A DNA stretch of 45,399 bases from the IMG/VR virus record IMGVR_UViG_3300038441_000952, positions 1-45,399 of that record; one strand, given 5' to 3'. Under the pieces are notes generated by a model that searched no databases, was not told the origin of the DNA, and saw nothing but the letters and a program-made list of their open reading frames with translations. Source of the stretch: a virus. Numbering within the stretch: the stretch's first letter is position 1; the number at the start of each line of letters is the position of its first letter. The translations under genes and the position numbers were made by a program. Below are positions 14,583-44,038 of this stretch, one piece after another.

Positions 14583-14613
14583 GTGTTGCTCCTTGCTAGA
14601 AGTTCTGAAATCA

Positions 14614-14710
14614 GTACGCGCCCCGTAGGGCGGAGAACGCGGGTCGGTCGGACGGTTTCACCGACCCGCTCCCGTTCTCTCGCGTACGCCCCCGTAGCGC
14701 CCCGTTACGA
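14614..14710. repeat. Boundary repeat R3
   Basis: CGCGCCCCGTAGGGCG on the left and TACGCCCCCGTAGCGCCCCG on the right flank a central hairpin in which GAGAACG, GGGTCGGT pair with ACCGACCC and CGTTCTC. It follows TCAGTACG, a string also found at the left end of R4. The repeat reaches the last codons of the next gene. Confidence 0.7.
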
Positions 14711-14977: not shown

Positions 14978-15165
14978 AGCCCCTCCGAGTGTTCCTCGTG
15001 CTCGAAGCCGCCCTCGCCGTCGCCGTCAGCCCGGATCATGTCTCCCGGCTCGATGCGGTCTCCGCATACCGAGCAGCTGGATCCGTACCGAGCCTCGAAG
15101 ATCGGCCCCTTGCCCGACGGCCGGTCCTCGTCGCTGACGCCGAAGCTAGTTGTCCTCGTCGCCAC
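14974..15165 (-). CDS. Small zinc-finger-like protein
   Basis: A 63-residue protein with CSVCGDRIEPGDMI in the middle and FEHEEH near the end, giving a C-x2-C...H-x2-H arrangement. Such short treble-clef-like modules are common in actinophages. The start is GTG 15165 with GGAGGAG five bases upstream. It overlaps the 3' end of the upstream gene by 20 bases. Confidence 0.65.
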   Translation of the reverse strand: MATRTTSFGVSDEDRPSGKGPIFEARYGSSCSVCGDRIEPGDMIRADGDGEGGFEHEEHSEGL

Positions 15166-15718
15166 TGGTCTCCTCCTTCACGACCAGGCGACGCCGACGT
15201 TTGATCAGGCCGACGTGGTTCTTGGCGAGCTCCGCGATCGAGATGGCTCCCTGTCCGACAGAGGGCTGCCAGTTGTCGATCTGCACCTCCAGGTCTCGGA
15301 TCGCTCGGTCGAGGTGCTCGACCGTCAGGAGGTCCATGCGCTCCATGACTCCGAGAAGCTCCATGTCGTCGCCGACGCGGACCATGCTGAAGTCGGTCCA
15401 ACCGGCGGACATGTAGGAGGCGATGGCCGAGCGGTACATCTCCCGCCTGCCCTCGTCGCTGCCGACCGTCGCCTGGATGCCACGGAGATGGATGTTGATC
15501 GCGGACGTGGTCTCGTTGTGGGGCACGGCCTGGTCCTCCTCGTTGTTGTGAGCGAGCCTGTTCAAGATGGACAGGATGATGGCCCGCGCAGACGAGCTGT
15601 ACGGCTCCATCCTGGTGTTGTCCGGACCAGGGACCCAGTTGTCCCGCAGGACCGCCTCGACGTAGTCGACGATCTCGTGGAACGAACCGGGTCCCTGTGC
15701 AGCGAGGATGTGCTGCAT
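15146..15718 (-). CDS. Unknown 190-residue protein
   Basis: A mainly helical, soluble protein with no recognised motif. It has FHEIVDYVEAVLRDNW near the start and a long helix pair between residues 115 and 150, ending in a basic RRRR stretch and an acidic tail. The ATG overlaps the upstream TGA as TGATG. It has the look of a conserved phage protein of unknown role. Confidence 0.65.
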   Translation of the reverse strand: MQHILAAQGPGSFHEIVDYVEAVLRDNWVPGPDNTRMEPYSSSARAIILSILNRLAHNNEEDQAVPHNETTSAINIHLRGIQATVGSDEGRREMYRSAIASYMSAGWTDFSMVRVGDDMELLGVMERMDLLTVEHLDRAIRDLEVQIDNWQPSVGQGAISIAELAKNHVGLIKRRRRLVVKEETSGDEDN

Positions 15719-16164
15719 CAGAAGTTGCCCGTGGCGAGCAGCTCGCCGCTCTCGCTGTGGACGGTGACGAGCCCGTTCTCGGACTTGAAGCAGTCGGCGA
15801 ACGCGGAGGCGATCAGCTTGGCCTTGCCGCCGTTCGGACCGAACATGTCGCCCTTCAGGTCGGTGAAGACGTCGGCCGTGTCGAGGACGTTGTTCATCTT
15901 GTCAGCGACCTTGACCTTGGTCACGTGCTTGGTGGCCGCCTTCTCGGTGGCAAGCCCGCCCTTGGCGACGCAGTCGCGGAAGAGCTGCGCCTTGGTGGAC
16001 TTGTTCTCCTCCGTCGTCGGCTGCGGCGCGTAGGAGGTGGCCGTGCCGATCTGCGGCTGGACCGCGACCTTGTCCGACGCACCCTCGCCCGCCGCCACGG
16101 ACCCGAGGATGATCACGGTCGCGGCTCCGACGAGCCCCGCGAAGATCTTCTGCTTGGTGTTCAC
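15718..16164 (-). CDS. Exported or membrane-anchored protein
   Basis: A 148-residue protein starting at GTG 16164, which overlaps the ThyX stop as GTGA. The first ~28 residues are NTKQK then a hydrophobic run ending in GSVAAGEGA, a likely signal peptide or N-terminal anchor with an AxA-like cleavage region. The rest is hydrophilic, with two Cys (LFRDCVAK and FADCFKSE) that could pair outside the membrane. No family is recognised. Confidence 0.65.
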   Translation of the reverse strand: MNTKQKIFAGLVGAATVIILGSVAAGEGASDKVAVQPQIGTATSYAPQPTTEENKSTKAQLFRDCVAKGGLATEKAATKHVTKVKVADKMNNVLDTADVFTDLKGDMFGPNGGKAKLIASAFADCFKSENGLVTVHSESGELLATGNF

Positions 16165-17219
16165 TTCTTGTCCATCCCCGGCCGACGGCCGATCGTGTGG
16201 AACAGCGGCTTGAAGGAGCGCTGCTCGTCCTTGGCCCACGGCTTGTCACACTGGCCCTCCGGCGACTCCCAGCCCTGGAAGGTGCACTTGGCGCCGATGC
16301 GCCCCTGGCCGAAGCAGGTGTGGCAGGTGATGGTCTCGTACTTGTCGTACGCGACCTTGCCTTCGACCTCGCCCTTGCCGTTGCAGTCCTGGCAGACGGA
16401 GCCGGTCTTCTCGCAGGAGATCTTGACGTACGGGGCGAGCCAGTGGTTCTCGCCCTCGGAGCCGACGAGCTCGGCGCGCATGAGGCGCATGACCTCGACC
16501 ATCTCCCACATGAACATGGAGCAGGCCCGATAGGCGTAGACGTTGATGAACTCGCGCACGGTGTAGGTGCACTGGATGAAGTTCACCGTGCCCTCGACGA
16601 GGACGAACCGAGCGTCCTGGTACGAGATGTCCTCCTCGCACGCGATGCGGTACGCGTCCCACGTCGCCGCCACGGCCTTCTCGAACGCGGCCCGAGCCCG
16701 AGGGTTCTTGTACACCGACAGCGGCATGCGGACGTCCGGCCGGTCGCCGTAGAACGTCGCGCGCTGGGACTGCTGGTTGAACGCCGCGTTGCGCGTCCGG
16801 ACGAGCTGATGGGTGAGCGCCCGGCTCGCGTTGTAGATCCGGAAGACGATGGTGTCGGACTCCAGGGCTCCCTGCAGGCCGCCCTTCATCATCTCCTCCC
16901 AGTCCCGCTCGTCACCCGGGGCGTGCGGGTCGATGCCGACCGTGGCCCGCGTCGCGGACGACAGCACCGACTTGAACACCTCGAAGTTCGGCGCCTTGAC
17001 GAGTTCGACCCGGAGACCGGCCGTGCCGACATGCAGGGTGTTCTGATCGTACGGGCTGACGTGCTCGCCGTCGTTGACCGAGTGCTTGTTGAACACGAGG
17101 TCGGTGAGCTTGGCGTCGGAGAGGTCCTGCGGATTGGTGTTGTAGTACGCGTTGCTGGTTCCGTCGTAGACGTTGCCTTCGCGGTGCTCGACGAGCCAGG
17201 ACGGGATGCTGTTGCTCAT
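16161..17219 (-). CDS. thyX: FAD-dependent thymidylate synthase ThyX with extra zinc motifs
   Basis: A 352-residue ThyX. The flavin/dUMP signature appears as RTRNAAFNQQSQR at residues 141-153, matching RHRxxSxxxxSQR apart from the His-to-Thr change. It makes dTMP from dUMP with methylene-tetrahydrofolate. Most ThyX proteins are about 220-250 residues; here a C-terminal extension carries CQDCNGKG (276-283) and CHTCFGQG (299-306), the CxxCxGxG repeat of DnaJ-type zinc domains, with further Cys at 269, 312 and 324. The extension may bind zinc; its role is unknown. Confidence 0.9.
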   Translation of the reverse strand: MSNSIPSWLVEHREGNVYDGTSNAYYNTNPQDLSDAKLTDLVFNKHSVNDGEHVSPYDQNTLHVGTAGLRVELVKAPNFEVFKSVLSSATRATVGIDPHAPGDERDWEEMMKGGLQGALESDTIVFRIYNASRALTHQLVRTRNAAFNQQSQRATFYGDRPDVRMPLSVYKNPRARAAFEKAVAATWDAYRIACEEDISYQDARFVLVEGTVNFIQCTYTVREFINVYAYRACSMFMWEMVEVMRLMRAELVGSEGENHWLAPYVKISCEKTGSVCQDCNGKGEVEGKVAYDKYETITCHTCFGQGRIGAKCTFQGWESPEGQCDKPWAKDEQRSFKPLFHTIGRRPGMDKK

Positions 17220-17242
17220 GCTGTGGTGTTCCTCTGCAGGAG

Positions 17243-17275
17243 GGGCGCCCCGACCAACTTGTGGTCGAGGCGCCC
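17243..17275 (-). terminator. Hairpin after the HU-like gene
   Basis: GGGCGCC at 17243 pairs with GGCGCCC at 17275, and CGACCA with TGGTCG inside, around a short loop. It sits between the HU-like gene and thyX. It lacks a clear U tract. Confidence 0.55.
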
Positions 17276-17289
17276 GAGTTGGGTTGTTG

Positions 17290-17613
17290 TTACTTGGTCT
17301 TGTGGGCGTAGGCCGGGAACTCGACGAGCTCGTCGTCCGAGTTCAGCATCCGCTTGACGTTGGCGGCCGGACGCCAGGAGGCGCGGACGGACGGCGCGAT
17401 CTCGACGGGCTCGCCGGTCTGCGGGTTGCGGCCGGTGCGACCCGGGACCTCCTTGACGGAGAACTTGCCGAAGCCGAAGAGGTCGATCTCGTCCTCCTCG
17501 ACCATCGCCCGCAGCAGGCCGTCCAGGACGATGTCCAGGGCCTCCTCGGCCTCCTTCTTGTCGCCGTCGAAACGGGTGTCGGCGATCTGGGCGACGAGGT
17601 CCTTCTTCTTCAC
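17290..17613 (-). CDS. HU-like DNA-binding protein
   Basis: A 107-residue member of the HU/IHF family. It has the N-terminal helix pair (KKKDLVAQIADTRFDGDKKEAEEALDIVLDGL) and the beta-arm signature GFGKFSVKEVPGRTGRNPQTGE. HU proteins bend DNA as dimers and can aid replication, packaging or transcription control. The start is GTG 17613, which overlaps the upstream stop as GTGA, with GGAGAGGAA upstream. A short acidic and then basic C-terminal tail extends past the usual ~90 residues. Confidence 0.92.
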   Translation of the reverse strand: MKKKDLVAQIADTRFDGDKKEAEEALDIVLDGLLRAMVEEDEIDLFGFGKFSVKEVPGRTGRNPQTGEPVEIAPSVRASWRPAANVKRMLNSDDELVEFPAYAHKTK

Positions 17614-17921
17614 GGGGTGTTCCTCTCCTGGTTGATGCGGATGGCGTGTACCAGCGCACCATGGGCCACGGCTCCGACGGGCGTCGAACCGAAGTCGATA
17701 GGGCCGTTGTCGATCATCTTGATCAGATCAACGACGTGATGATGATACCTGAGCCAAAGCCCAGGGTTTCGGCGGGCGTACGATACGGCGGCGATGGATA
17801 GCACTTGGGGGTCAACCTCGTGACTGCTGAGGAATACCTTGACTTCCCTTAGTGCATCTTCGAGCAGTCCGAGTTCCAGATCGCGTTCCAGACCTCGACC
17901 TGCGCCTCTCGCCTCCGCCAT
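17610..17921 (-). CDS. Unknown 103-residue protein
   Basis: AAAGG lies six bases before ATG 17921. The protein has a helical N-terminal half and a middle section RYHHHVVDLIKMIDNG. Its first 73 bases overlap, in another frame, the end of the upstream gene, an unusually long overlap for this genome. A shorter start at the GTG of QVLSIAAV would avoid it but has no clear Shine-Dalgarno. The stop overlaps the HU-like start. Confidence 0.55.
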   Translation of the reverse strand: MAEARGAGRGLERDLELGLLEDALREVKVFLSSHEVDPQVLSIAAVSYARRNPGLWLRYHHHVVDLIKMIDNGPIDFGSTPVGAVAHGALVHAIRINQERNTP

Positions 17922-18094
17922 GTTTCGCCTTTCAGAATTACGTGGACGCCGTCTTCGAACTTGCCGACGACTGTCCAGTGGTACTTGTGAAGCAGCCCGC
18001 GACGACTGATGATCGTCCGGACCCCCGAGAGGCCAGGCACCCACCGAGAACCGGGGAGCCGGGGGAACGTGGCCTCTCGTCGGTACGATCTCAT
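17849..18094 (-). CDS. Unknown 81-residue basic protein
   Basis: ATG 18094 overlaps the upstream stop as ATGA. The protein is basic, with GLLHKYHWTVVGKFEDGVHVI suggesting a small beta sheet, and ends NAIWNSDCSKMH. Its last 73 bases lie inside the next gene in a different frame. No family is recognised. Confidence 0.55.
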   Translation of the reverse strand: MRSYRREATFPRLPGSRWVPGLSGVRTIISRRGLLHKYHWTVVGKFEDGVHVILKGETWRRREAQVEVWNAIWNSDCSKMH

Positions 18095-18453
18095 CCGCTC
18101 GTCTCGGCCATGCGCTTGAGCTGGCGACGCAGGAGGTCCTCCAGCCAGGCCGTGAACACGGCCGCGTTCTGTGCGACCTCGATGATGAGCAGGTCCTCGT
18201 CGGTCTCGGCCAGAGCCTCCAGGAACTCCTCGGCGGCGATCGTCGCCCAGTCGTCCTTGCTCGCCTCGTGGTTGGCGTCGCAGACGGTCTTCCACTGCTC
18301 AGCGAAGATCTCCGCCACCACAGAGCCGGTGCCGTCGGGGTGATTCTGCTCGCCCCACTTGACCATCTGGCGGCGACGCTCGTCCCTGATCATCGACATC
18401 GCCTTGTGATGGGCGGGGTCGCGCATCAACTGGACCTCGGGGTCCATCTCCAT
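18091..18453 (-). CDS. MazG-like nucleotide pyrophosphatase
   Basis: A 120-residue all-alpha protein. The segment RDERRRQMVKWGEQNHPDG, followed by a second helix region with AAEEFLEALAE and then IIEVAQNAAVFTAWLEDL, matches the MazG-like fold seen in many phages (metal-binding EExxE and the closing E...AA..W helix). These enzymes hydrolyse (d)NTPs to monophosphates. AAAGGA lies before ATG 18453; an ATG two codons later is also possible. It fits a nucleotide-pool role with ThyX and dCMP deaminase. Confidence 0.72.
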   Translation of the reverse strand: MEMDPEVQLMRDPAHHKAMSMIRDERRRQMVKWGEQNHPDGTGSVVAEIFAEQWKTVCDANHEASKDDWATIAAEEFLEALAETDEDLLIIEVAQNAAVFTAWLEDLLRRQLKRMAETSG

Positions 18454-18475
18454 CTCGGTTCCTTTCTCGGAATCA

Positions 18476-18568
18476 GTACGTTGGCGCGTAAGCGCCGATC
18501 TAGCGGGGGTCGGTCCCCTTGCCCATCCCGCCGCTGTTCGCTCGGCTACGGGGCGCGTAGGCCCCTTC
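18476..18568. repeat. Boundary repeat R4
   Basis: It begins AGTACGTTGGCGCGTAAGCG and ends GGCTACGGGGCGCGTAGGCC, with GGTCGGTCCCCTTGCCCATC in the centre. Its right two thirds are read as the last ~25 codons of the leftward gene that ends at 18500, so the repeat has probably replaced or extended that C-terminus. Confidence 0.7.
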
Positions 18569-19024
18569 CCGGGGCTCTCCGGCGGCGGGCTCCTTCGAGG
18601 CGAGCGCATCGGCGAGCGGGACGACGTAGATCTCCTGCGTCTTCTCGCTGTCGGAGACGTGCACGTGCTGGGTCGGCACAGGGATGTTGTAGGTCTTGTC
18701 GGAGCGCAGCGGGAAGCCGGTCGGGCTGGCGTCGGCCACGGGCTCGGCGAACTCCTGCAAGGTCTCCTCGTACACCGGCTGCTCGATCGGAGCGACGGTG
18801 CCCAGCACCTTCACGAGGATCGTCTCGACGTTCCGCGCCATGATGACCTGCGCGTCGCCCCGGTCGTTGGTGAACTCGATCGGGTACGAGTCCATGGTCA
18901 GCTGGTACTTGACCTTGCCATGGAGGTCCTGGAGCTCCGTGCCCTCCGAGACCGTGAACGGCATCGTGTTGTACACACGGCCGCTGTTCATGACGTAGGC
19001 GAGCTGAACCTGCATGGTGTTCAC
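18500..19024 (-). CDS. Unknown 174-residue protein
   Basis: The start is GTG 19024 (GTGA overlap) or ATG 19015. Residues ~1-75 look like a beta-rich domain (VYNTMPFTVSEG, ARNVETILVKVLGTV), followed by an acidic, Pro-rich, poorly ordered half. The last ~25 residues (GEPREGAYAPRSRANSG) are encoded by boundary repeat R4 and are basic. No family is recognised. Confidence 0.6.
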   Translation of the reverse strand: MNTMQVQLAYVMNSGRVYNTMPFTVSEGTELQDLHGKVKYQLTMDSYPIEFTNDRGDAQVIMARNVETILVKVLGTVAPIEQPVYEETLQEFAEPVADASPTGFPLRSDKTYNIPVPTQHVHVSDSEKTQEIYVVPLADALASKEPAAGEPREGAYAPRSRANSGGMGKGTDPR

Positions 19025-19164
19025 TTGTCGTCCTTCTTCCTGTTGCGAGCCCGGCGAGGGCCGGACACGAGGGGCTTGACGCTGGTGGCCTGGAACTTGA
19101 TCCGATGGTTCCTGCCGATCGTGGCGGCCTGGTAGCCACGGATACGGCGCATGGTGTTGGTCAC
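19021..19164 (-). CDS. Small basic protein
   Basis: A 47-residue protein from GTG 19164 (GTGA overlap with the upstream stop), or 43 residues from ATG 19152. It is strongly basic (MRRIRGYQAATIGRNHRIKF and PRRARNRKK), so it may bind nucleic acid. No family is recognised. Confidence 0.5.
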   Translation of the reverse strand: MTNTMRRIRGYQAATIGRNHRIKFQATSVKPLVSGPRRARNRKKDDK

Positions 19165-19361
19165 TTCGGACTCTCGAACTGGTAGACGGGGGCGGGCAGG
19201 ATGCCGTGGTCGGCCATGGCGGGGAACACGAAGTGGAAGATCACGAACGCCATCCCGATGAACCCCGCCGCCATGGAGAGGTTCCTCGTCAGGGTGTACT
19301 GGACTCGCTGCTTGAGCCCCATGTCCTCTTCGTCGTCCCACAAGGGCTCTCGGTTCGCCAT
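19161..19361 (-). CDS. Small membrane protein
   Basis: A 66-residue protein with a charged N-terminus and one hydrophobic segment at about residues 30-50 (SMAAGFIGMAFVIFHFVFPA). AGGAG lies six bases before the ATG and directly after the polymerase stop, so it is translated from the same message. Role unknown. Confidence 0.65.
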   Translation of the reverse strand: MANREPLWDDEEDMGLKQRVQYTLTRNLSMAAGFIGMAFVIFHFVFPAMADHGILPAPVYQFESPK

Positions 19362-27627: not shown

Positions 27628-27677
27628 GTTGGCTCTCCTGTTTGATGTGGACACGACGGGAAACCCCGAGGTGTTCG

Positions 27678-27756
27678 CTCCCACGGCAGGGTTCGAACCT
27701 GCACATCTACCCGGGTGCGACCCGACCAGCGCTCTGCCATACTGAGCTACGTGGGA
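27678..27756 (-). tRNA. tRNA gene with an extended anticodon arm (candidate anticodon CGC)
   Basis: The acceptor stem UCCCACG/CGUGGGA, D arm (GCTC...GAGC) and T arm (GCAGG-TTCGAAC-CCTGC) are all perfect, with G as discriminator and no encoded CCA. The anticodon arm is unusual: C-U-G-G-U-C-G-G pairs with C-C-G-G-G-U-A-G with one mismatch, giving an 8-position stem and a 7-base loop GUCGCAC, so U33 CGC A37 is the likely anticodon. An alanine tRNA would need G3:U70, but position 3 is C:G, so identity is uncertain. Length is 79 bases. Confidence 0.7.
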
Positions 27757-36296: not shown

Positions 36297-36359
36297 CCTG
36301 GTCTCCTCAGCATGGGTACCTTACCCATGGACGTGACTGGCTGTCACGTTTCGACCTGG
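36297..36359 (-). ncRNA. Hammerhead ribozyme H1 (type II)
   Basis: Read leftward: stem II CCAGGTC/GACCAGG (one A.A mismatch), GAAA, stem III CGTGAC-AGCCA-GTCACG, cleavage triplet GUC before C, stem I CATGGGTA-AGG-TACCCATG, and core CUGAGGA. All core residues are present. It lies directly before the DUF2786 gene, and the stem II 3' strand overlaps its Shine-Dalgarno. The predicted cut is in the last position of GUC. Confidence 0.95.
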
Positions 36360-36365
36360 ACGGGA

Positions 36366-36590
36366 TCAGTCGGTGCCGAGCACGATGTGCTCGTTGTTCG
36401 GGACGTCGCGGAGGGCGGCCTCGCGGATCGCCTCGTCCGACTTGTGCTTGTGCAGCATGTGCGCCAGCTTCTCGAGCTGCTCGGCGGAGATGTTGATCGC
36501 GTCCTGTCCGTCGTCGAGGAGGACGCCCTCCCATCCCTCGGACACGGTCGCCCAGAGGTAGTCGTCGAGCTGGACTCGTTCGTTCGCCAT
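36366..36590 (-). CDS. Unknown 74-residue acidic protein
   Basis: AGGAG lies five bases before ATG 36590. The protein is acidic and helical with LEKLAHMLHKHKSDEAIREAAL. It ends 6 bases before ribozyme H1. Role unknown. Confidence 0.62.
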   Translation of the reverse strand: MANERVQLDDYLWATVSEGWEGVLLDDGQDAINISAEQLEKLAHMLHKHKSDEAIREAALRDVPNNEHIVLGTD

Positions 36591-36598
36591 GGTCGCTC

Positions 36599-36727
36599 CT
36601 AGCAGCCCTGGTTGAGGATGAAGATGATGCCGAGCAGGACGATGATCAGGAGCACGATGCATCCGAACATCAGCTCGATGGCCATCTTGAGCATGTCGCC
36701 GTAGGACATGTTGGTGAAGCGCTTCAC
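36599..36727 (-). CDS. Small membrane peptide
   Basis: A 42-residue protein from GTG 36727 (GTGA overlap). Residues ~13-38 are one hydrophobic helix (MLKMAIELMFGCIVLLIIVL...). It ends NQGC. Role unknown. Confidence 0.55.
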   Translation of the reverse strand: MKRFTNMSYGDMLKMAIELMFGCIVLLIIVLLGIIFILNQGC

Positions 36728-37014
36728 GAGATCGCCTCCCACAGCGGACGGGGCGCGTAGGGGCTGATCCTGCCATAGCCGTTCACCTGGTCCGTGGCCA
36801 GCCACACGGCCTTGCGCGCCTCGTCGGCGAGCTCTCCGTCGATGTAGTCGGCGAGCTCCTCACCCGAGATGACGCCGAGCACGACCCCGGTGAGCGGGTA
36901 GGTCGGCTGCATCCCGACGAGCACCTCGACCTCGGAGACGTCGACACCGGCGTCCTCCAGGTCCAGCCGGATCTCTCCGAGCTTCTCGATGAGCTCCGTG
37001 AGCTTCAGCTTCAT
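36724..37014 (-). CDS. Unknown 96-residue acidic protein
   Basis: GGAGGG precedes the ATG by a short gap, and ribozyme H2 lies immediately upstream. The protein is acidic, with a helical first half (LTELIEKLGEIRLDLEDAG) and a VEVLVGMQPTYPLTGV strand region. Role unknown. Confidence 0.68.
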   Translation of the reverse strand: MKLKLTELIEKLGEIRLDLEDAGVDVSEVEVLVGMQPTYPLTGVVLGVISGEELADYIDGELADEARKAVWLATDQVNGYGRISPYAPRPLWEAIS

Positions 37015-37025
37015 GTTCCCTCCAC

Positions 37026-37090
37026 GATCTCGTCAGCACCCGTGCCATACGGGCGGACGCCACGGCTGGATGTCGCAGCGTTTCGATCTG
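37026..37090 (-). ncRNA. Hammerhead ribozyme H2 (type II)
   Basis: Stem II GATC/GATC, GAAA, stem III CGCTGCG/CGTGGCG (two G.U pairs) with a nine-base loop, GUC before C (cut between 37056 and 37055), stem I CGCCCGT-ATGGC-ACGGGTG, and core CUGACGA. It sits between the membrane peptide ending at 37101 and the gene starting at 37014, whose Shine-Dalgarno follows. Confidence 0.93.
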
Positions 37091-37100
37091 GCTGTGGTGG

Positions 37101-37226
37101 TTACCAGTGGAGCCCGAAGGCTCGCAGGACCAGCCCGATGCCGACCCCGAGCAGGACCCCGAGGATGGCGCAGGTGGCGATGTTCCACGGCGTGTCCGTG
37201 AAGAACGAGTTGAGCTTGCGAAGCAT
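37101..37226 (-). CDS. Small membrane protein
   Basis: A 41-residue protein with ATG 37226 and GGAGG upstream. One Gly/Leu-rich hydrophobic helix covers residues 15-36 (NIATCAILGVLLGVGIGLVL). It follows boundary repeat R7 directly. Role unknown. Confidence 0.58.
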   Translation of the reverse strand: MLRKLNSFFTDTPWNIATCAILGVLLGVGIGLVLRAFGLHW

Positions 37227-37240
37227 GAGCCCTCCCGAGG

Positions 37241-37330
37241 CCCTAGGCGGCCGTCTACGGGCCGCGCGTTGCCGGGTGAGCCCCTTCGCCCACCCGGCTT
37301 GCGTTCGGCGCTTACGTTGGCGCCTACGGC
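37241..37330. repeat. Boundary repeat R7
   Basis: CCTAGGCGGCCGTCTACGG on the left and CGCTTACGTTGGCGCCTACG on the right mirror each other around a hairpin in which GCCGGGTG pairs with CACCCGGC, enclosing AGCCCCTTCGCC. Together with R2 it gives the fullest form of the family. Confidence 0.8.
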
Positions 37331-37866
37331 GTCTCGATGAACCCGGCCTCGTCGGCGTCACCATTCTCGACCGCCGCGAGCTGCGCCTCGGAGACGGCCG
37401 GATAGAGGCCAGCCGGGTGCTCGGTGAAGTTGCTGGCGCTGGAGCAGCCGATGTACTGGAGCTCGCACTCGATCACGCGGAGCTCGCGGTTGCGGATCTC
37501 CGTGAGGACGTTGTACCGAGCCTTGAGCTGCGCCTGGAGCCAGCTCGGGTCGATCCAGGCCGAGGCCCGCATCTTCTCGTTCGCCTTGAGCTCCAGGTAC
37601 GCGAGCCGAACGAACTCGTCGACGTTGCCGAACTGCTCCAGGGTCGGCTCCAGACCGATCTCCATGTCGGTCCGGTTGCCGAAGGACTCCTTGAGGAGGT
37701 ACTCGACCTCGTCGTTCTGCTCCTGCGCCCGGAGGCGGTCGATGACCTCGTTGGCCCGCTTCTCAGCGTTGAAGCCGAGGATGTCGACGAAGACCTCGAT
37801 CGTCTCCGCCGTGTCGAACTCCAGGTTGGTCTTCTCGATGAGAAGGATCCGGATACCCATAACCAC
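37324..37866 (-). CDS. Unknown 180-residue protein
   Basis: The start is GTG 37866 (AAGGAG five bases upstream) or ATG 37860. The protein is helical and soluble, with AETIEVFVDILGFNAEKRANEVIDRL and a middle region VRLAYLELKANEKMR. The upstream frame reads on through ribozyme H3 to a GTG at 37893, which I reject. Role unknown. Confidence 0.65.
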   Translation of the reverse strand: MVMGIRILLIEKTNLEFDTAETIEVFVDILGFNAEKRANEVIDRLRAQEQNDEVEYLLKESFGNRTDMEIGLEPTLEQFGNVDEFVRLAYLELKANEKMRASAWIDPSWLQAQLKARYNVLTEIRNRELRVIECELQYIGCSSASNFTEHPAGLYPAVSEAQLAAVENGDADEAGFIETP

Positions 37867-37878
37867 GCTCACTCCTTG

Positions 37879-37931
37879 AGAGCTCCTCAGCACCGGCTCT
37901 TACCGGCGGACGCCCGAAGGCGTTTCGCTCT
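37879..37931 (-). ncRNA. Hammerhead ribozyme H3 (type II)
   Basis: Stem II AGAGC/GCTCT (5 pairs), GAAA, stem III CGCC-TTCG-GGCG (a stable UUCG loop), GUC before C (cut between 37909 and 37908), stem I CGCCGG/CCGGTG, core CUGAGGA. It is the shortest copy. The Shine-Dalgarno AAGGAG follows stem II directly. Confidence 0.96.
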
Positions 37932-37940
37932 TGCCTGGCG

Positions 37941-37980
37941 CCCGGTGCAGGGGTTTGGGTGGTCGCCACCCTGCACCGGG
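37941..37980 (-). terminator. Long hairpin between paralog 2 and ribozyme H3
   Basis: CCCGGTGCAGGG pairs perfectly with CCCTGCACCGGG (12 pairs) and an inner GGGTGG/CCACCC adds to it. It follows the paralog-2 stop. No U tract follows, so it may be an RNA 3'-end stabiliser rather than a terminator. Confidence 0.55.
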
Positions 37981-37994
37981 GCCGTCATGGGGTG

Positions 37995-38480
37995 TTACTC
38001 AGCGGCCTTGGCGGCCGTGCGGCGGGTGCGCCGGACTCGCGGCTTGGCCACGGGCGCCTCCTCCTTGGCCTCCTCGACCGGAGCGGTCTCGGCCACGGCC
38101 TCCTCGACCTTCTCCGCGTCGTCCGACAGCGCCTGGTCGGCCTCGCTGTCGTACTCCTCGGGCTTGGTCTCCTCGGCGACCGGCGCGGCCTCCTCGCCCT
38201 TGAGCTTGGCGAGCTCGGCCTCCAGCTTGGCGAGCTTGCGGGCCTTGGCCTCCTCGGCCTTCTTGGCCGCCGCGACCTTGCGGTCGGCGAGGTTCGCCTG
38301 GTTCTCCGGGCTGGCCTGGAAGTCCAGGCGGAAGGACACCGCGAGCTGGACGGTCTTGAGGTCGGGCTTGACCCCCGTCTTCTCCTCGATCCAGGCGGCG
38401 AACGCCTTGTGGAGGTCGGTGGGCTCGGCCTTGGCGCGCTCGGCGAAGGTCTTCTTCTTGGAGGCGGTGTTCTCGGTCAT
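37995..38480 (-). CDS. Paralog 2 of the PTDLH protein family
   Basis: A 161-residue protein with the shared N-terminal module (EPTDLHKAFAAWIEEKTG, DLKTVQLAVSFRLDFQASPE). A Lys/Ala/Glu helix follows, then an acidic stretch and a basic tail KPRVRRTRRTAAKAAE. AGGAG lies five bases before the ATG. It is the first gene after leader A and ribozyme H4. A DNA-binding or scaffold role is possible but unproved. Confidence 0.75.
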   Translation of the reverse strand: MTENTASKKKTFAERAKAEPTDLHKAFAAWIEEKTGVKPDLKTVQLAVSFRLDFQASPENQANLADRKVAAAKKAEEAKARKLAKLEAELAKLKGEEAAPVAEETKPEEYDSEADQALSDDAEKVEEAVAETAPVEEAKEEAPVAKPRVRRTRRTAAKAAE

Positions 38481-38490
38481 GGTAACTCCT

Positions 38491-38564
38491 AGGGACTCCT
38501 CAGCACCGGCACTCTACCGGCGGACCATCGGGGCGGCCTCTCGACCGCCCCTAGGTTTCGTCCT
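38491..38564 (-). ncRNA. Hammerhead ribozyme H4 (type II)
   Basis: Stem II GGAC/GTCC, GAAA, a long stem III with GGGGCGG/CCGCCCC inside, GUC before C (cut between 38523 and 38522), stem I CGCCGG/CCGGTG, core CUGAGGA. It follows leader A and precedes paralog 2. Confidence 0.94.
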
Positions 38565-38577
38565 GTGTACTGCTTCT

Positions 38578-38664
38578 CTCGCACCCGCCGGGACCTACCG
38601 GCTGCTTGTGCGAGGCGCGTCGACCAGTCGATTAGCCGAGCTACGGGTTTTGTGGAGGTCCCGT
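38578..38664 (-). ncRNA. Leader A: two conserved hairpins
   Basis: Hairpin 1 (38643-38664) is ACGGG/CCCGT with loop ACCTCCACAAAA. Hairpin 2 (38578-38614) is CTCGCAC/GTGCGAG with AAGCA on one side and GG on the other, topped by GCCGG-TAGGTC-CCGGC. The same two hairpins, with changed stem sequences but the same loops, occur in leader B. The loops can pair (ACCU with AGGU), suggesting a pseudoknot. Confidence 0.7.
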
Positions 38665-38809
38665 TCCTGTCAGAAGTCAGCGGCCCTTGCGGGGCGCGAT
38701 CTCAGCCGTCTTCCTGGGCTGTCCTACTCGGGCTCGCGGTCTTCGGGCTGCGTCTCGACCGTCGGCTGGATGCGCCGTCCCGGGAGTTCCTCGCTTGCCC
38801 TGCTCGCTT

Positions 38810-38940
38810 ACGAGTAGAACTATGCGCCATTCCTCCGGGGAAGGCAAACACCCATCTACCTGCGCATTCATCGCGTTTGCCCTGGTAGGGGGCTTGCGAA
38901 GATTCTATAATTTCTTTCAAGAAATTACATATGCGCAGGT
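38810..38940 (-). promoter_or_regulatory. Promoter P38.8 with mirrored GGTAG operator
   Basis: TTTGCC (38843-38848) and CATAGT (38819-38824) are 18 bases apart, and TTCTACTCGTAAGC follows the -10. Upstream, CCTACCAGGGC and GCAGGTAGA face each other around GATGAATG, as in P42.7. Further upstream lies an AT-rich stretch with TTTCTTGAAAGAAA. It heads the transcript through ribozymes H4 to H1. Confidence 0.8.
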
Positions 38941-39004
38941 AGACATGAGTGTCGACCATCTACGGCGATTCACCGCGCCTCAGCGCGAATCGGGCGAAAC
39001 CGCC

Positions 39005-39433
39005 CTACAGCGCCGTGAGCTTCCACAGCGAGCTGTCCTCCAGGCGCACAATCTGGGAGCCGTCCGAGGCCTTGCCGACGGGCTCGTACAGCTCCCAGGT
39101 GCCCGGCTTCTCCCAGGGGGCGCGCGGCTTGGCACGGGGCGGCACGGAGGCCGGGGTGCCGTCGCTGTGCGTGATGGGCTCATTCAGGTCCGCCAGGGGC
39201 ACACCGGCCACGGCGGGCTGAGCCTTGGGCGCCGCACTGTTGACGCGCCAGACGTGTCCCTTGGAGATCACGTCGATGTCCATCTTGTTCTGAGCGATGA
39301 TGCGGCGCATGACAGCGCGGACCTGCTCGTCGCGGAGGCCGGTCTCCTTGCAGGCCTCGTTGATGATGATGGTCTGGCCGATGCGCGCGACCAGGTACTT
39401 GGTCATGGTCGACTGCACGTTCATGTTACCCAT
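39005..39433 (-). CDS. Winged-helix-like DNA-binding protein
   Basis: A 142-residue protein. Residues ~10-65 have the helix-turn-helix look of TIIINEACKETGLRDEQVRAVM followed by a wing-like strand (IDVISKGHVWRVN). The second half is Pro/Ala-rich and ends in a short beta region. It might regulate phage promoters. ATG 39433 has GGAGGG nine bases upstream, just after ribozyme H5. Confidence 0.65.
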   Translation of the reverse strand: MGNMNVQSTMTKYLVARIGQTIIINEACKETGLRDEQVRAVMRRIIAQNKMDIDVISKGHVWRVNSAAPKAQPAVAGVPLADLNEPITHSDGTPASVPPRAKPRAPWEKPGTWELYEPVGKASDGSQIVRLEDSSLWKLTAL

Positions 39434-39448
39434 GTTGCAGAGCCCTCC

Positions 39449-39512
39449 TAGACTCGTCAGCGGCCGTCTACGGCCGGACCGCACCCCGGTGACCCGGGGC
39501 CGGTTTCGTCCT
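39449..39512 (-). ncRNA. Hammerhead ribozyme H5 (type II)
   Basis: Stem II GGAC/GTCT (one G.U), GAAA, stem III with CCG/CGG and CCCC/GGGG, GUC before C (cut between 39477 and 39476), stem I CGGCCGT-AG-ACGGCCG, core CUGACGA. It starts 8 bases after the stop at 39521 and ends just before the Shine-Dalgarno. Confidence 0.94.
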
Positions 39513-39520
39513 GTGGAGGA

Positions 39521-40153
39521 TCAGACGTAGGACCAGGAGCGCACGACCGACATGGTGCCATGGCTGGCGACCCGCTGCCTGGCCGCCTTGAGCAGCTCGT
39601 CCTGGTCGGGCTCTCCGAGCACCTTGACGCGCTGCTGGCTGATCTTGGCCGGATACTTGAGCCCGTGCTGCTTGTCCATCTGCACGACGGCGAGCCTGTC
39701 GTAGCGGTTGAACTCGCTGTCCTCGAACCGGAGAATCACGCCCTCCATGCCCACGTACCGGCCACGGGTGGTGAGCGACTTCACGCGCTTGCCGATGCCG
39801 GGGGTGGACCAGTTGTCCGTGGCCGACTTCACGAGCATGCGGATCGTCCACTCGTCGGCCGCCCTGAGCACGTCGATCGTGGCGTCGGCGGAGGCGTTGT
39901 GGTGGTACGTCCAGCCACGGGTCGTCGCGTACTGGATCGTCTTGACGCGCTCCTCCTCGGCGTCCCACACGACCGCGTAGAAGTCGCTGTCGTCGTGCAT
40001 GTTGCGCTCGTAGATGCCGATCACGGCTCCGAGATAGGTCGTCTCGTGGGCCTCAAGGTGCAGTTTGTTGAGCGCCTCGTCGGAGCTGTACTGGTTGGGG
40101 TCGTACCCCTGCTCCTTGCCGTGCCAGGGGTTGGTGCAAGTGATGATGGGCAT
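39521..40153 (-). CDS. Unknown 210-residue protein
   Basis: GAGGAGG lies before ATG 40153, immediately after ribozyme H6; an in-frame upstream start at 40435 would run through the ribozyme and is rejected. The protein has AVIGIYERNMHDDSDFYAVVWD early and a small beta domain with GRYVGMEGVILRFEDSEFNRYD. No family is recognised. Confidence 0.68.
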   Translation of the reverse strand: MPIITCTNPWHGKEQGYDPNQYSSDEALNKLHLEAHETTYLGAVIGIYERNMHDDSDFYAVVWDAEEERVKTIQYATTRGWTYHHNASADATIDVLRAADEWTIRMLVKSATDNWSTPGIGKRVKSLTTRGRYVGMEGVILRFEDSEFNRYDRLAVVQMDKQHGLKYPAKISQQRVKVLGEPDQDELLKAARQRVASHGTMSVVRSWSYV

Positions 40154-40165
40154 GATTCCTCCTCG

Positions 40166-40220
40166 GGAGCTCTTCAGCAGGACCGTGCAGCCCTGGACGC
40201 TCACATGAGCGTTTCGCTCT
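40166..40220 (-). ncRNA. Hammerhead ribozyme H6 (type II)
   Basis: Stem II GAGC/GCTC, GAAA, stem III CGCTC-ATGT-GAGCG, GUC before C (cut between 40196 and 40195), stem I CAGGGC/GTCCTG, core CUGAAGA. The Shine-Dalgarno GAGGAGG follows. Confidence 0.96.
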
Positions 40221-40380
40221 GGGTGGCGACCTCCGCACCCCTCCATATGAGTGCAGAGGCCGCCTGCGGGCCATTTCGAACAAGGCTCGTGCCCGGGCAC
40301 AACCCGGTCGGACGATCGTGCTCCTAGGAGTGCACTAGCGAAAGCCGTGCTGCACGAGCCAGGTCTTACGGATCCCCGCG
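40221..40380 (-). other. Non-coding leader of about 160 bases
   Basis: No gene is supported here. Read leftward it holds CTCTGCAC facing GTGCGGAG just before ribozyme H6, placed like hairpin 2 of leaders A and B, plus other short mirrored pairs such as GTGCAGCACGGC with GTGCAC. No family promoter is seen. Confidence 0.5.
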
Positions 40381-40398
40381 TTCCGGCCGTCGCCGGAA
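40381..40398 (-). terminator. Short hairpin after the zinc-motif gene
   Basis: TTCCGGC-GACG-GCCGGAA is a perfect 7-pair stem 3 bases after the stop of the gene at 40402. It lacks a U tract. Confidence 0.5.
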
Positions 40399-40401
40399 GT
40401 C

Positions 40402-40551
40402 TTATGCCAGCTCCAGGCCTCTGTCGAAGCCGCACTGGGCATGGGCGACGATGCTGATGGCGCCCGAACGATCGGCCGTCCTGAACTCAGCCATCTCGTC
40501 GTCCGGCCCCTCGTCGCAGAGCTCGCAGTCGTCGTTGAACTCGGGCAGCAT
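40402..40551 (-). CDS. Small zinc-motif protein
   Basis: A 49-residue protein with CELC near residue 9 and HAQC near residue 37, a possible CxxC...HxxC zinc site, within an acidic background. ATG 40551 overlaps the upstream stop as TGATG. No family is recognised. Confidence 0.6.
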   Translation of the reverse strand: MLPEFNDDCELCDEGPDDEMAEFRTADRSGAISIVAHAQCGFDRGLELA

Positions 40552-40808
40552 CAGAGGGCCTTCCGAACGTTGATGGAGAGGACGACCGGGTTGGTCCAGA
40601 TGTAGTTGCCGGAGCCGTCGGTGTTGCTCTGGTGGACGGTCGTCCTCCGGTCGATGCGGTATGCCATCACGAACCGCGCGGCCATCGTTATGTCCGGGAG
40701 CTCGATGTCGAGCGTGCCGGTTCGATCCATGCCGTGGACCGTGGCCTTGAAGGCGGCCACGTTGCTCGTCAGCAGACCCTGCAGAACGGTGTCGATCTCG
40801 ATGGTCAT
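40551..40808 (-). CDS. Unknown 85-residue protein
   Basis: GGAGG precedes the ATG at 40808, right after ribozyme H7. The protein is beta-rich (VHGMDRTGTLDIELPDITMAA, NPVVLSINVRKAL). No family is recognised. Confidence 0.65.
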   Translation of the reverse strand: MTIEIDTVLQGLLTSNVAAFKATVHGMDRTGTLDIELPDITMAARFVMAYRIDRRTTVHQSNTDGSGNYIWTNPVVLSINVRKAL

Positions 40809-40939
40809 GATTCCTCCGGTCTCTTCAGCAGGCGCACCTTACGCCTGGACGTCGCTGGCTGCGACGTTTCGACCTGGTTGGAGAAGTGGTCTTGCCGGCA
40901 TGCCCATAAGCAGGCTAGCCAGACGGATAGGGCGGCCAT
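40805..40939 (-). CDS. Doubtful short reading frame that contains ribozyme H7
   Basis: A possible 44-residue frame that begins ATG in a TGATG overlap, like its neighbours, has a short hydrophobic start (MAALSVWLACLWACR), and ends in an ATGA overlap. Its second half is the ribozyme read as protein (NQVETSQPATSRRKV). The overlaps favour it; the ribozyme inside argues against a conserved C-terminus. Confidence 0.25.
   Translation of the reverse strand: MAALSVWLACLWACRQDHFSNQVETSQPATSRRKVRLLKRPEES
40818..40877 (-). ncRNA. Hammerhead ribozyme H7 (type II)
   Basis: Stem II GGTC/GACC, GAAA, stem III CGTCGC-AGCCA-GCGACG, GUC before C (cut between 40848 and 40847), stem I CAGGCG/CGCCTG, core CUGAAGA. 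The stem III loop AGCCA equals that of H1. GGAGG follows stem II. Confidence 0.96.
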
Positions 40940-41034
40940 CAGGCCGCGCCCCAGAAGATCGCCAGGCTGACGGCGACAACGCCGATCACGAACAGGATGC
41001 ACCCGAGGGCCATCTGGTCTCCGCTAACACCCAT
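40939..41034 (-). CDS. Tiny membrane protein 1 of cluster
   Basis: A 31-residue protein with one hydrophobic helix (ALGCILFVIGVVAVSLAIFW). ATG overlaps the upstream TGA by one base. It is one of four consecutive tiny membrane proteins. Confidence 0.55.
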   Translation of the reverse strand: MGVSGDQMALGCILFVIGVVAVSLAIFWGAA

Positions 41035-41153
41035 CAGAAGAACTCCACCTTCGAAACGATGAACATGAGCACGGACATGAGGACCATCCCGACCGCCATC
41101 AGCGCGAGCAGGAACAGGAAGCAGCCGCGCGCTTCCTCGTAGCCGTCGGCCAT
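41034..41153 (-). CDS. Tiny membrane protein 2 of cluster
   Basis: A 39-residue protein starting MADGYEEARGC, then a helix (FLFLLALMAVGMVLMSVLMFIV), then SKVEFF. It is linked to both neighbours by TGATG overlaps. Confidence 0.58.
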   Translation of the reverse strand: MADGYEEARGCFLFLLALMAVGMVLMSVLMFIVSKVEFF

Positions 41154-41272
41154 CAGAACACCAGCCCCATCAGGATGGTGAAGCCGACACCCAAGGCGAA
41201 CCCCAGTCCGCCGAGACCGACAAGTATCTTGAACAGGTCGCTCCTGTCGCGATCGCTGGAACCCATCAGCAT
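41153..41272 (-). CDS. Tiny membrane protein 3 of cluster
   Basis: A 39-residue protein, starting MLMGSSDRDRSDLF, followed by a Gly/Leu-rich helix (ILVGLGGLGFALGVGFTILM). A second ATG two codons in is possible. TGATG overlaps join it to both neighbours. Confidence 0.55.
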   Translation of the reverse strand: MLMGSSDRDRSDLFKILVGLGGLGFALGVGFTILMGLVF

Positions 41273-41400
41273 CAGTGCTTCCTGCCCTTCTTGTCCTTGC
41301 CGGTGTTCTTGATGAGGACGTAGACGATCCAGCAGATCACGGCGATGAAGCCGAAGAACAGCAGGGTGTCCACGATGAGGATGAACAGTTCAGCGGGCAT
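41272..41400 (-). CDS. Tiny membrane protein 4 of cluster
   Basis: A 42-residue protein with a hydrophobic helix (ELFILIVDTLLFFGFIAVIC...) and a basic tail (KNTGKDKKGRKH), so the C-terminus is likely cytoplasmic. AAGGAG lies before ATG 41400, just after ribozyme H8. It is the first gene of the cluster. Confidence 0.6.
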   Translation of the reverse strand: MPAELFILIVDTLLFFGFIAVICWIVYVLIKNTGKDKKGRKH

Positions 41401-41411
41401 GCACTCTCCTT

Positions 41412-41495
41412 GAGCTCGTCAGCACGGCCACCTAGCCGTGGACGAGCCCCGGGCGAAGGGGTGTTGGGGAGTCCGCCCGGGGCTCGTTTCGCTCT
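41412..41495 (-). ncRNA. Hammerhead ribozyme H8 (type II)
   Basis: Stem II GAGC/GCTC, GAAA, a very long stem III (CGAGCCCCGGGCG with CGCCCGGGGCTCG, 13 perfect pairs) with an 18-base loop, GUC before C (cut between 41441 and 41440), stem I CACGGC/GCCGTG, core CUGACGA. It starts 4 bases after the TAG of the upstream gene. The long stem III would leave a strong 3' hairpin on the upstream message. Confidence 0.96.
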
Positions 41496-41498
41496 GTC

Positions 41499-41807
41499 CT
41501 ACTTGTCCGTCGGGACGTTGACGACCGCGTCGTCCGAGCCCCAGCCCGCGTTCGGGTCCGAGCCCTGGTCCTGCGGGATGTTGACGACCTCGCTGTCGTT
41601 GCCGAGGTACTGGTTCTCGTCGCCCATGTTGGCGATCTCCTTCTTGATCTGGTTCCAGATCGTCTCGTCGTCGAGGTGCGGGAACGTCTTCTTGGCGATG
41701 ACGAAGACCGACTGAATCTCGATGTCTCCCTCAGCCCAGCAGGGCATGCTGCCCGGGCCCGGCACCTTCTGCTTGGTCAGCTCCTGGATGTCGAGCTCGA
41801 CCTTCAT
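41499..41807 (-). CDS. Unknown 102-residue acidic protein
   Basis: AGGAGG lies four bases before ATG 41807, immediately after ribozyme H9. The protein is acidic with a helical middle (LDDETIWNQIKKEIANMG) and two copies of a VVN(I/V)P motif near the end (SEVVNIPQD, DAVVNVPTD). Role unknown. Confidence 0.68.
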   Translation of the reverse strand: MKVELDIQELTKQKVPGPGSMPCWAEGDIEIQSVFVIAKKTFPHLDDETIWNQIKKEIANMGDENQYLGNDSEVVNIPQDQGSDPNAGWGSDDAVVNVPTDK

Positions 41808-41817
41808 GCTTCCTCCT

Positions 41818-41876
41818 AGGACTCATCAGCACGGCTTCCTTAGCCGTGGACCCGGCTGGCTACCGGGTTTCGTCCT
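41818..41876 (-). ncRNA. Hammerhead ribozyme H9 (type II)
   Basis: Stem II AGGAC/GTCCT (5 pairs), GAAA, stem III CCCGG/CCGGG with loop TAGCCAG, GUC before C (cut between 41849 and 41848), stem I CACGGC/GCCGTG, core CUGATGA, the textbook hammerhead sequence. It begins at the TGA stop of the upstream gene and ends in the next gene's Shine-Dalgarno. Confidence 0.97.
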
Positions 41877-42202
41877 CAGTTGAACTGCGCCTCGACCAGC
41901 GTCCTGTGTCGGCGGATGGCCTGGCGTACCGCGTCGTACTTCGCCCCGTGCCGGAACGCCACGGCCTGCATGGCGCCTCTGACGCATCCGAGCTTGACCC
42001 AGTCCTCGTACAGCCTGGCGTCCGACACCCTGAGCGGAATGTACTCGCGCTGGACGATGTCGTACCGAGCCTTGAGCCGCCTGCGGATGCAGGTTTCGGT
42101 CACTCCGTACTGGAGCGCCGTCTGCGAGACGTTCCGACCGAGCAGCTCCCACATCGTGTGGATGCGCTCGTTGTCCTGGGGCAGCTGGCTGGTTGCCGGC
42201 AT
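41876..42202 (-). CDS. Helix-turn-helix protein
   Basis: A 108-residue protein. GRNVSQTALQYGVTETCIRRRLK is a good helix-turn-helix; a second similar stretch is AVAFRHGAKYDAVRQAIRRH, so there may be two. It could regulate the nearby promoters. GGAGG lies five bases before ATG 42202. It is the first gene behind P42.7, leader B and ribozyme H10. Confidence 0.7.
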   Translation of the reverse strand: MPATSQLPQDNERIHTMWELLGRNVSQTALQYGVTETCIRRRLKARYDIVQREYIPLRVSDARLYEDWVKLGCVRGAMQAVAFRHGAKYDAVRQAIRRHRTLVEAQFN

Positions 42203-42213
42203 GCTCACCTCCG

Positions 42214-42288
42214 AGACTCTTCAGCAGCGCCGTTCAGCGCCGGACAGCCCGCCCCCGGGTCATGGCCAAGGGCGGACTGTTTCGTCTT
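42214..42288 (-). ncRNA. Hammerhead ribozyme H10 (type II)
   Basis: Stem II AGAC/GTCT, GAAA, stem III CAGTCCGCCC/GGGCGGGCTG (10 pairs, one G.U), GUC before C (cut between 42243 and 42242), stem I CGGCGC/GCGCTG, core CUGAAGA. It separates leader B from the helix-turn-helix gene. Confidence 0.95.
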
Positions 42289-42298
42289 GTTGTGTTGC

Positions 42299-42491
42299 CT
42301 GCACCCCTGTGGGACCTACCACAGCGCTTGTGCAGTTCGCAGCTAGCTTTGCACCTTGCCTACCAACCTGATGTGTCCACGTAGAAGCGGGTTCCGTGTC
42401 TCCCTCGCTTGTACGTGGCCGTCCCAGGCCAGTCGCGTGCTGTCAGCCTCTCGGCTGTCGCCTGCCACTACCGGTTGTGTGGGGGTCCGGT
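42299..42491 (-). ncRNA. Leader B: two conserved hairpins
   Basis: Hairpin 1 (42470-42491) is ACCGG/CCGGT with loop ACCCCCACACAA. Hairpin 2 (42299-42335) is CTGCAC/GTGCAG with AAGCG and GG opposite each other, topped by CTGTGG-TAGGTC-CCACAG. Loops match leader A while stems differ but still pair. A third hairpin, CCACGTA/TACGTGG with AAGCG/CGCTT, lies between them. Confidence 0.7.
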
Positions 42492-42700
42492 TCCCGTCTC
42501 GAGTCAGCCGCCTGCTGGACACCTTCTCCAGAGGGGGCGATTAAGGCCGTCTCCCTTGGCCCGCCCGGGTTGTCGTCACCGGGCTCCGAGTTCGACCGCG
42601 AGGGCCAGCTTGGGGGATGGGTTCCCGGTTCACCCGTAGGTCGCTTCCGGTCCGCTCTCCCCGCCTCAGAGGGGGTCGGACCCTCTGCGACTCGGTGTTA
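42492..42700 (-). other. Upstream part of leader B, no gene seen
   Basis: About 210 bases with no supported gene on either strand. It has several GC-rich mirrored pairs, such as CAGAGGG facing CCCTCTG near 42670-42690. It is expected to be transcribed from P42.7. Confidence 0.5.
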
Positions 42701-42845
42701 CGAGGAGAACTATGCCCCAGTCGGGCTGAGAAGGCAAACAGCCTCCTACCTGGTCATTCATCGGAAAAGCCCTGGTAGGAGGCTTGCGAACAATCTTGAA
42801 GTTTTTTGAAGAAATCATGAAAGCCCTGGTAGGAGGCTTGCCGGC
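42700..42845 (-). promoter_or_regulatory. Promoter P42.7 with mirrored GGTAG operator and tandem copy
   Basis: TTTGCC (42733-42738) and CATAGT (42709-42714) are 18 bases apart, with ACTGGGG before the -10 and TCTCCTCGTAAC after. Upstream, CCTACCAGG (leftward) and CCAGGTAGG form an inverted pair around GATGAATG. The string GCAAGCCTCCTACCAGGGC occurs twice, separated by an AT-rich CTTCAAAAAACTTCAAGAT block. Confidence 0.8.
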
Positions 42846-43477: not shown

Positions 43478-44038
43478 CTAGTTGTCGAGCTTGGGGCAGC
43501 AGGGCTTGGCGTCGTAGGCCATGTAGTTGTCCTCCAGGCTCGACTCACCCGAGTCGATCATGTCGGCGTAGATGATGTGGGTGACCTCGGTGTGGCTGCT
43601 GACCGTGACCGTCTCCTGGCTGTCGCCCTTGCGGCGGCTGCGCTTAATGTCGGCGCAACCCGCCTTGTGGACCTCCGGCTCGCCGTTGCCCTTGTACAGG
43701 ATGGTGAGCTTGACCTTCTCGGCGGGCTCGACCGGGGCGGCCTCCTCGACCTTGGGCGACTCCTCCTTGCCGGCACGCAGCTTGGCCAGCTCGGCCTCCA
43801 GGCGCGCCTTCTTGCGCTCGGCCGCACCCTTGCGCTTCGCCTCGGCCTTGGCCTTGCGCTCGGCCAGGGAGGCCTGGTTCTCGGGGGAGGCCTGGAAGTC
43901 CATGCGGAGGGTGGTGACCAGCTGGACGGTCTTCAGGTCGACCTCGACCCCGGTCTTCTCGGTGATCCAGGCGGCGAACGCCTTGTGGAGGTCGGTGGGG
44001 GCGGCGGCGGCGCGCTCGGCGAAGGACTGCTTGGCCAT
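43478..44038 (-). CDS. Paralog 3 of the PTDLH protein family
   Basis: A 186-residue protein with the shared N-terminal module (APTDLHKAFAAWITEKTG, DLKTVQLVTTLRMDFQASPE) and a Lys/Ala/Glu helix. Unlike the other two it ends in a folded-looking domain with LTILYKGNGEPEVHKAGC, TEVTHIIYADMI and a CC pair near the end, rather than a basic tail. GAGGAG precedes ATG 44038. It has its own promoter. Confidence 0.75.
   Translation of the reverse strand: MAKQSFAERAAAAPTDLHKAFAAWITEKTGVEVDLKTVQLVTTLRMDFQASPENQASLAERKAKAEAKRKGAAERKKARLEAELAKLRAGKEESPKVEEAAPVEPAEKVKLTILYKGNGEPEVHKAGCADIKRSRRKGDSQETVTVSSHTEVTHIIYADMIDSGESSLEDNYMAYDAKPCCPKLDN

Follow-up and report, generated by a model that had tools for sequence, protein, structure and literature searches.

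Analysis of the IMG/VR virus record IMGVR_UViG_3300038441_000952 (positions 1 to 45,399, all 45,399 nucleotides of which are referred to here as the window) revealed ten type II hammerhead ribozymes, H1 to H10, within 6 kb of the minus strand (36299-42288). We consider it probable, at roughly two chances in three, that the ten elements are self-cleaving and act in cis as RNA processing sites of a leftward early operon. The window derives from a Streptomyces-type phage and is itself probably an incomplete virus record; its nearest relatives are the Streptomyces phages Rooney, Gibson, ShakeNBake, Lizz, PHTowN, Dryad, Wentworth, Yara and phiRKBJ001, with approximately 77-80% identity across a third or more of the query. 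Seven relatives were examined whole and, together with the window, make up the eight genomes referred to below.

Regarding the identity of the elements, a preliminary description of this DNA had listed ten minus-strand elements carrying GAAAC, GUC and CUGANGA in that order with three stems, a C after every GUC, a variable N7 and six types of stem II, and all of these features are present in the sequence. The order GAAA, stem III, UH, stem I, CUGANGA and 3' strand of stem II is found in 10/10, as are the core bases C3 U4 G5 A6 N7 G8 A9, G12 A13 A14 A15.1 and U16.1 H17. The base at position 17 is C throughout (10/10) and N7 reads A, U, C, A, A, C, G, G, C and G along H1-H10. Stem II is AGAC/GUCU in H1, GGAC/GUCC in H2 and H7, GAGC/GCUC in H3, H5 and H8, GGUC/GACC in H4 and H10, GGAC/GUCU in H6 and GAUC/GAUC in H9. 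Searches used a descriptor of the type II order (5' strand of stem II, GAAA, stem III, UH, stem I, CUGANGA, 3' strand of stem II), by which stems I and III are loop-closed and stem II is open in all ten elements; core-adjacent mispairs in stems I, II and III numbered zero according to the descriptor and the orthologue tables. The strict descriptor returned nine elements in the window against a mean of 0.05 per randomised window, and a relaxed form allowing a 2-bp inner stem III returned exactly ten, with none in 60 first-order Markov windows. Stem III of H7 consists of 2 bp beside the core, an internal loop and a further 7 bp. The plus strand of the window gave no match with either form.

The covariance search that the preliminary description had proposed also places the elements far from background. 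The covariance model R1 was built from 35 elements, mostly of unrelated metagenomic phages but including H5, aligned at equal stem III length, since an alignment in which stem III varied could not serve for model building. With R1 the ten elements score 40.1-55.7 bits (E-values of 5e-13 to 8.5e-9) and the next match in the window 10.9 bits. The training elements were selected for paired stems, so that the covariation count of R1 itself is circular and is not independent evidence. The assignment of all ten to the type II hammerheads is thus well supported by sequence. That they are decayed or chance hammerhead-like sequences devoid of activity would fit their scores, all of which lie under the cut-off of the Rfam type II model, but the empty randomised windows, the ten consensus cores and the conserved sites with compensatory changes make this scarcely credible.

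Each of the ten elements lies directly upstream of a ribosome-binding site and start codon. From right to left on the minus strand, with predicted cut positions and R1 scores, H1 (42213..42288; 46.4 bits) would be cut after C17 at 42243 and precedes a helix-turn-helix-like gene (42202-41876), the same gene family being preceded by an orthologue in five relatives. H2 (41818..41876; cut after C at 41849; 55.7 bits) stands before the gene 41807-41499, relatives of which lie behind two hammerheads in Yara. H3 (41411..41495; 41441; 51.1 bits) has a long stem III of 15 bp and precedes a run of small overlapping open reading frames, resembling membrane proteins, that starts at 41400; H4 (40817..40875; 40848; 52.1 bits) precedes the gene 40808-40551. 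The genes behind H5 (40166..40220; 40196; 55.1 bits, as a member of the R1 training set) and H6 (39449..39512; 39477; 42.6 bits), located at 40153-39521 and 39433-39005, are likewise led by a hammerhead in Yara. H7 (38492..38564; 38523; 43.7 bits) sits between a non-coding leader, leader B, and the gene 38480-37995 (phrog_20596), and H8 (37879..37931; 37909; 53.7 bits) precedes the gene 37860-37324; both have orthologues in 7/7 relatives. H9 (37025..37089; 37056; 40.1 bits), before the gene 37014-36724, has orthologues in Yara and ShakeNBake, and H10 (36299..36357; 36330; 50.3 bits), before a DUF2786 gene (36287-35322), has orthologues with compensatory changes in 7/7 relatives.

The same placement holds beyond the window. 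The descriptor gave 46 distinct elements in the eight genomes, and for every one of them a ribosome-binding site and a start codon lie no more than 45 nt from the core, compared with 19% in shuffles; the leader from predicted cut to start codon has a median length of 43 nt. The 59 elements found with R1 in these genomes are all on the coding strand with the start codon 8-18 nt past the element end (59/59), although these are not independent events because the relatives are related. Between 42.3 and 36.3 kb, inspection by eye indicated that gene gaps of useful size hold a hammerhead, with the exception of 37320-37230, and that overlapping genes lack one; in five annotated relatives a hammerhead occupies 35 of 48 gaps of at least 55 nt and none of 34 shorter gaps.

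All seven relatives carry hammerheads, six to eight apiece, on the coding strand and within the right arm, where the small early genes lie. The H7, H8 and H10 sites stand before the same gene family in 8/8 genomes, H1, H2, H5, H6 and H9 are common to some relatives, and H3 and H4 are so far unique to the window. Across eight orthologue groups no break occurs in stem I or stem II. Of the 14 pairs scored (stems I and II plus the first four of stem III), 2-10 per group have both partners changed between orthologues, part of which may reflect replacement of one copy by another. A search for relatives in IMG/VR with the 321-aa DUF2786 protein found none, and a DNA pattern succeeded in its place. 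Gene content near the sites varies among relatives, the type of loop I switches between orthologous sites, and several copies on one unrelated contig are nearly identical, as might be expected if the elements were kept mainly as gene-boundary repeats that aid movement or recombination of gene cassettes, with cleavage secondary. We regard this as improbable: recombination requires shared sequence, not compensatory pairs, yet core and pairing are kept as stem sequences vary widely inside a single genome, and orientation always follows transcription.

Position, one-strand orientation and conservation support serial intergenic RNA processing, the function suggested in the preliminary description, as the best-supported function in so far as sequence can indicate it. 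RNA would initiate at one or both of two leader promoters (at approximately 42.72 and 38.83 kb) and be read leftward through the genes, each hammerhead folding during transcription and cutting after its own GUC. The stem III hairpin and a 2',3'-cyclic phosphate would close off the upstream product, and the downstream product would begin with a 5'-OH and the stem I hairpin from its first base. Approximately 43 nt past the cut comes a start codon, served by a ribosome-binding site of its own. Cutting would in this manner replace one promoter and terminator per gene and yield messages of one to few genes with protected ends, freed from long leaders, each of which would then decay and be translated independently. 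Cleavage and its end groups are expected here from hammerhead chemistry, and end protection and independent expression from general RNA biology. The stem I hairpin, beginning at base 1 of the 3' product, has a mean predicted energy of -10 kcal/mol, and the stem III hairpin, ending 2 nt short of the new 3' end, one of -16.6 kcal/mol; processing into one- to few-gene messages is favoured because hairpins are predicted at both ends and the start codon lies at the median distance given above.

Several observations weigh against this proposal. More than one gene lies in each of the segments after H3, H4, H8 and H9, some gene gaps lack a hammerhead, predicted access of the ribosome-binding site is 0.55 in uncut and 0.53 in cut RNA, and four of 18 consensus hammerheads were inactive under the conditions of Perreault et al. 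(2011; PMC3088659). The suggestion in the preliminary description that each message receives its own cut consequently applies to some segments only, since these four are multi-gene and since H1 and H7 would sever long non-coding leaders. Unmasking of the ribosome-binding site by cutting was considered and rejected, its predicted access being unchanged, and for the same reason a translational switch is unsupported.

If the hammerheads do cut, their main purpose might instead be control, with cleavage limiting or timing expression through slow variants, competition between ribosome and folding, or exposure to decay. Ribozyme and ribosome-binding site are only a few bases apart, and at the H7 site six relatives have kept a CCGANGA (U4C) core (L007 11253-11318; L009 11247-11312; L010 11449-11514; L011 10353-10418; L012 10876-10941; L013 10927-10992), the window and Yara keeping CUGANGA; this substitution slows cleavage in vitro and is tolerated in vivo in a viroid (cited in PMC3088659). 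Against control, selection for a working fold is suggested by cores that mostly match the full consensus and by a stem I that measures 6 bp in nearly all of 260 elements, fold prediction gives no switch at the ribosome-binding site, and no aptamer-like addition was seen in the elements. Control as the main purpose is accordingly judged unlikely, though it deserves more weight than the other alternatives.

Ends bearing 5'-OH and 2',3'-cyclic phosphate are substrates of RtcB-type ligases, and the ends expected from serial processing would suit such enzymes. Pairs of hammerheads could then free gene-length RNAs for a ligase to circularise or splice, and circular RNAs are known for other hammerhead elements (PMC7761336). 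Perreault et al. detected neither circular nor spliced products when they examined phage clusters for them (PMC3088659), and the annotation of the relative Rooney names no RNA ligase or kinase, so that we hold this outcome to be very improbable.

Regarding the start of the proposed operon, two regions of the minus strand (42289-42813 and 38565-38960) each contain a long inverted repeat and a promoter-like motif, followed by a non-coding leader. At 42289..42719 these are the motif GGGGCATAGTTCT (at 42719) and leader A, of approximately 420 nt and ending at H1, with most of the stretch approximately 80% identical to Yara; at 38565..38829 they are the motif GGCGCATAGTTCT (at 38829) and leader B, of approximately 250 nt and ending at H7, which are similar in 7/7 relatives. 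The two leaders have common short blocks (e.g., CAGGAACCGGACCTCCACAAAACCGGTAG), are conserved in related phages and gave no match to Rfam; possibly they are antitermination-type leader RNAs. Hammerheads occur only downstream of these two stronger-looking leader units (42.72 and 38.83 kb), and between 43.4 and 45.4 kb single genes stand behind related promoter-like motifs and lack hammerheads. A sigma-70 promoter scan gave one match against 1.0 expected, and terminator-like sites numbered nine against 5.8 expected, with none on the minus strand inside the array.

Some further features of the region were noted. The genes 43478-44038 and 37995-38480 (both minus strand) are paralogues (phrog_20596), one behind its own promoter-like motif and the other behind leader B and H7. 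Upstream of H5 lies a non-coding block (40238-40402, minus strand) that is 85% identical in Yara and 73% identical in phiRKBJ001 and precedes a hammerhead in both; by eye a long GGCUCGUGC/GCACGAGCC stem is possible. A GC-rich structured element (CGTAAnGnnCGAACGC plus hairpin) is found right before the ribosome-binding site in hammerhead-free gaps of annotated relatives (L007 12341-12435; L010 12878-12973; L011 11775-11870; L013 12342-12436), with a similar element in the window at 37230-37320 (minus strand), and it may be a terminator. A second ribozyme class was also sought in the hammerhead-free gaps, but Rfam gave nothing credible and matches of a short-motif scan were mostly in coding DNA. 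Elsewhere, the window contains a tRNA-Ala with anticodon CGC (27677-27756, minus strand).

Elements of this kind are widespread. A pattern for one stem II type was found in at least 119 IMG/VR stretches, many of them multi-copy, and in 28 bacterial genome stretches that span several phyla, including Actinomycetota, Acidobacteria, Verrucomicrobia, Paenibacillus and Alphaproteobacteria. None of the 48 loci with two or more elements has mixed strands, and searches of whole records gave 1-11 copies per record. Ten copies is high and not unique, as one metagenomic IMG/VR contig (G044, the source of locus L053) has eleven type II hammerheads in 4.8 kb of one strand (14426-19243), with a start codon shortly after most of them. 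Two loci, from Phycicoccus jejuensis (L137) and Streptomyces iakyrus (L138), have three hammerheads each with identical scores and nearly identical spacing, a likeness across two genera that reflects either a shared phage or cross-contamination.

Standard Rfam annotation of the window is blank because the scores of the type II model RF02276 fall under its gathering score of 37 bits: none of the ten was reported at this cut-off, and when RF02276 was searched as one family, six of the ten scored 24-28 bits and the other four were unreported at E<=0.001. Only three matches exceeded the cut-off in a set of 15 metagenomic loci with many descriptor elements. The window elements share with RF02276 and the published type II form the circular permutation, the core bases, the A15.1-U16.1 pair, the NUH cut site and the phage setting (PMC3088659). 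However, RF02276 describes a stem II of commonly 2 bp followed by bases that pair with loop I (Rfam alignments; PMC3088659), whereas in the window stem II is approximately 4 bp, an A directly precedes it and scores lie under the Rfam cut-off. This A was present in 53/53 descriptor elements of the eight genomes and in 198/207 metagenomic ones; among the 260 elements, stem I is nearly always 6 bp even though the descriptor permitted at least 4, and loop I nearly always starts with U. A pseudoknot between loop I and the bases just past stem II (at least 4 bp) was also considered, but the mean pairing score was reached in 8/100 and 55/100 tail permutations for the eight genomes and in 5/100 and 14/100 for metagenomic elements, a weak test because the tails are alike; the result is not clearly positive, and a loop I pseudoknot is not demonstrable in this form. 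A broader proposal, which we advance tentatively and consider rather doubtful as a whole, is that these elements form a widespread pseudoknot-less type II subtype (stem I of 6 bp, stem II of approximately 4 bp preceded by an A) that Rfam at its cut-off largely overlooks and whose arrays of 5-11 copies would replace promoters and terminators across early phage operons, with structured leaders that are cut off and, at one site, timing by a slow U4C variant that has been conserved.

Natural type II hammerheads were discovered by Perreault et al. (2011; PMC3088659), who described prophage clusters in Clostridium scindens, Azorhizobium caulinodans and Agrobacterium tumefaciens that flank single genes or short blocks, already proposed a processing role and demonstrated that three clusters cleave in vitro and that one does so in E. 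coli. Both there and in the window several hammerheads flank single genes or small blocks on one transcript, and the hypothesis is the same; novelty is therefore limited, as the kind of array and its proposed processing role were already known. In contrast to the prophage clusters, for which cleavage was shown on fragments of approximately 2 kb (three ribozymes in A. tumefaciens), the ten elements of the window lie within 6 kb, every one of them immediately upstream of a ribosome-binding site, and several of the related phages are in culture. Retrozymes and the hammerheads of viroids and satellites share the self-cleavage core but belong to types I and III and occur in circular or repeat RNAs, with no protein-coding operon (PMC6155905, PMC4918200). 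The preliminary description had left open whether this array was described before. No description of the ten-element array and no paper on point about hammerheads in Streptomyces phages was found in the part of the literature covered. The present analysis adds an array of greater size, which is conserved in phages, most of them with a named laboratory host, and whose elements are always placed directly before ribosome-binding sites, together with the under-detection of this form by the public model.

Why clustered hammerheads are retained in phages has been a question since 2011, and later work found bacterial ribozymes to be enriched near other ribozymes for a reason still unknown (PMC10085705). 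Hammerheads occur at defined gene boundaries, six to eight per phage and some before the same gene throughout, in at least seven related Streptomyces phages, most of which have records that name a laboratory host, and this makes the question testable. If serial processing is borne out, the public hammerhead II model would be shown to overlook much of this population, and the virus would lay out its messages by RNA catalysis and not by host nucleases.

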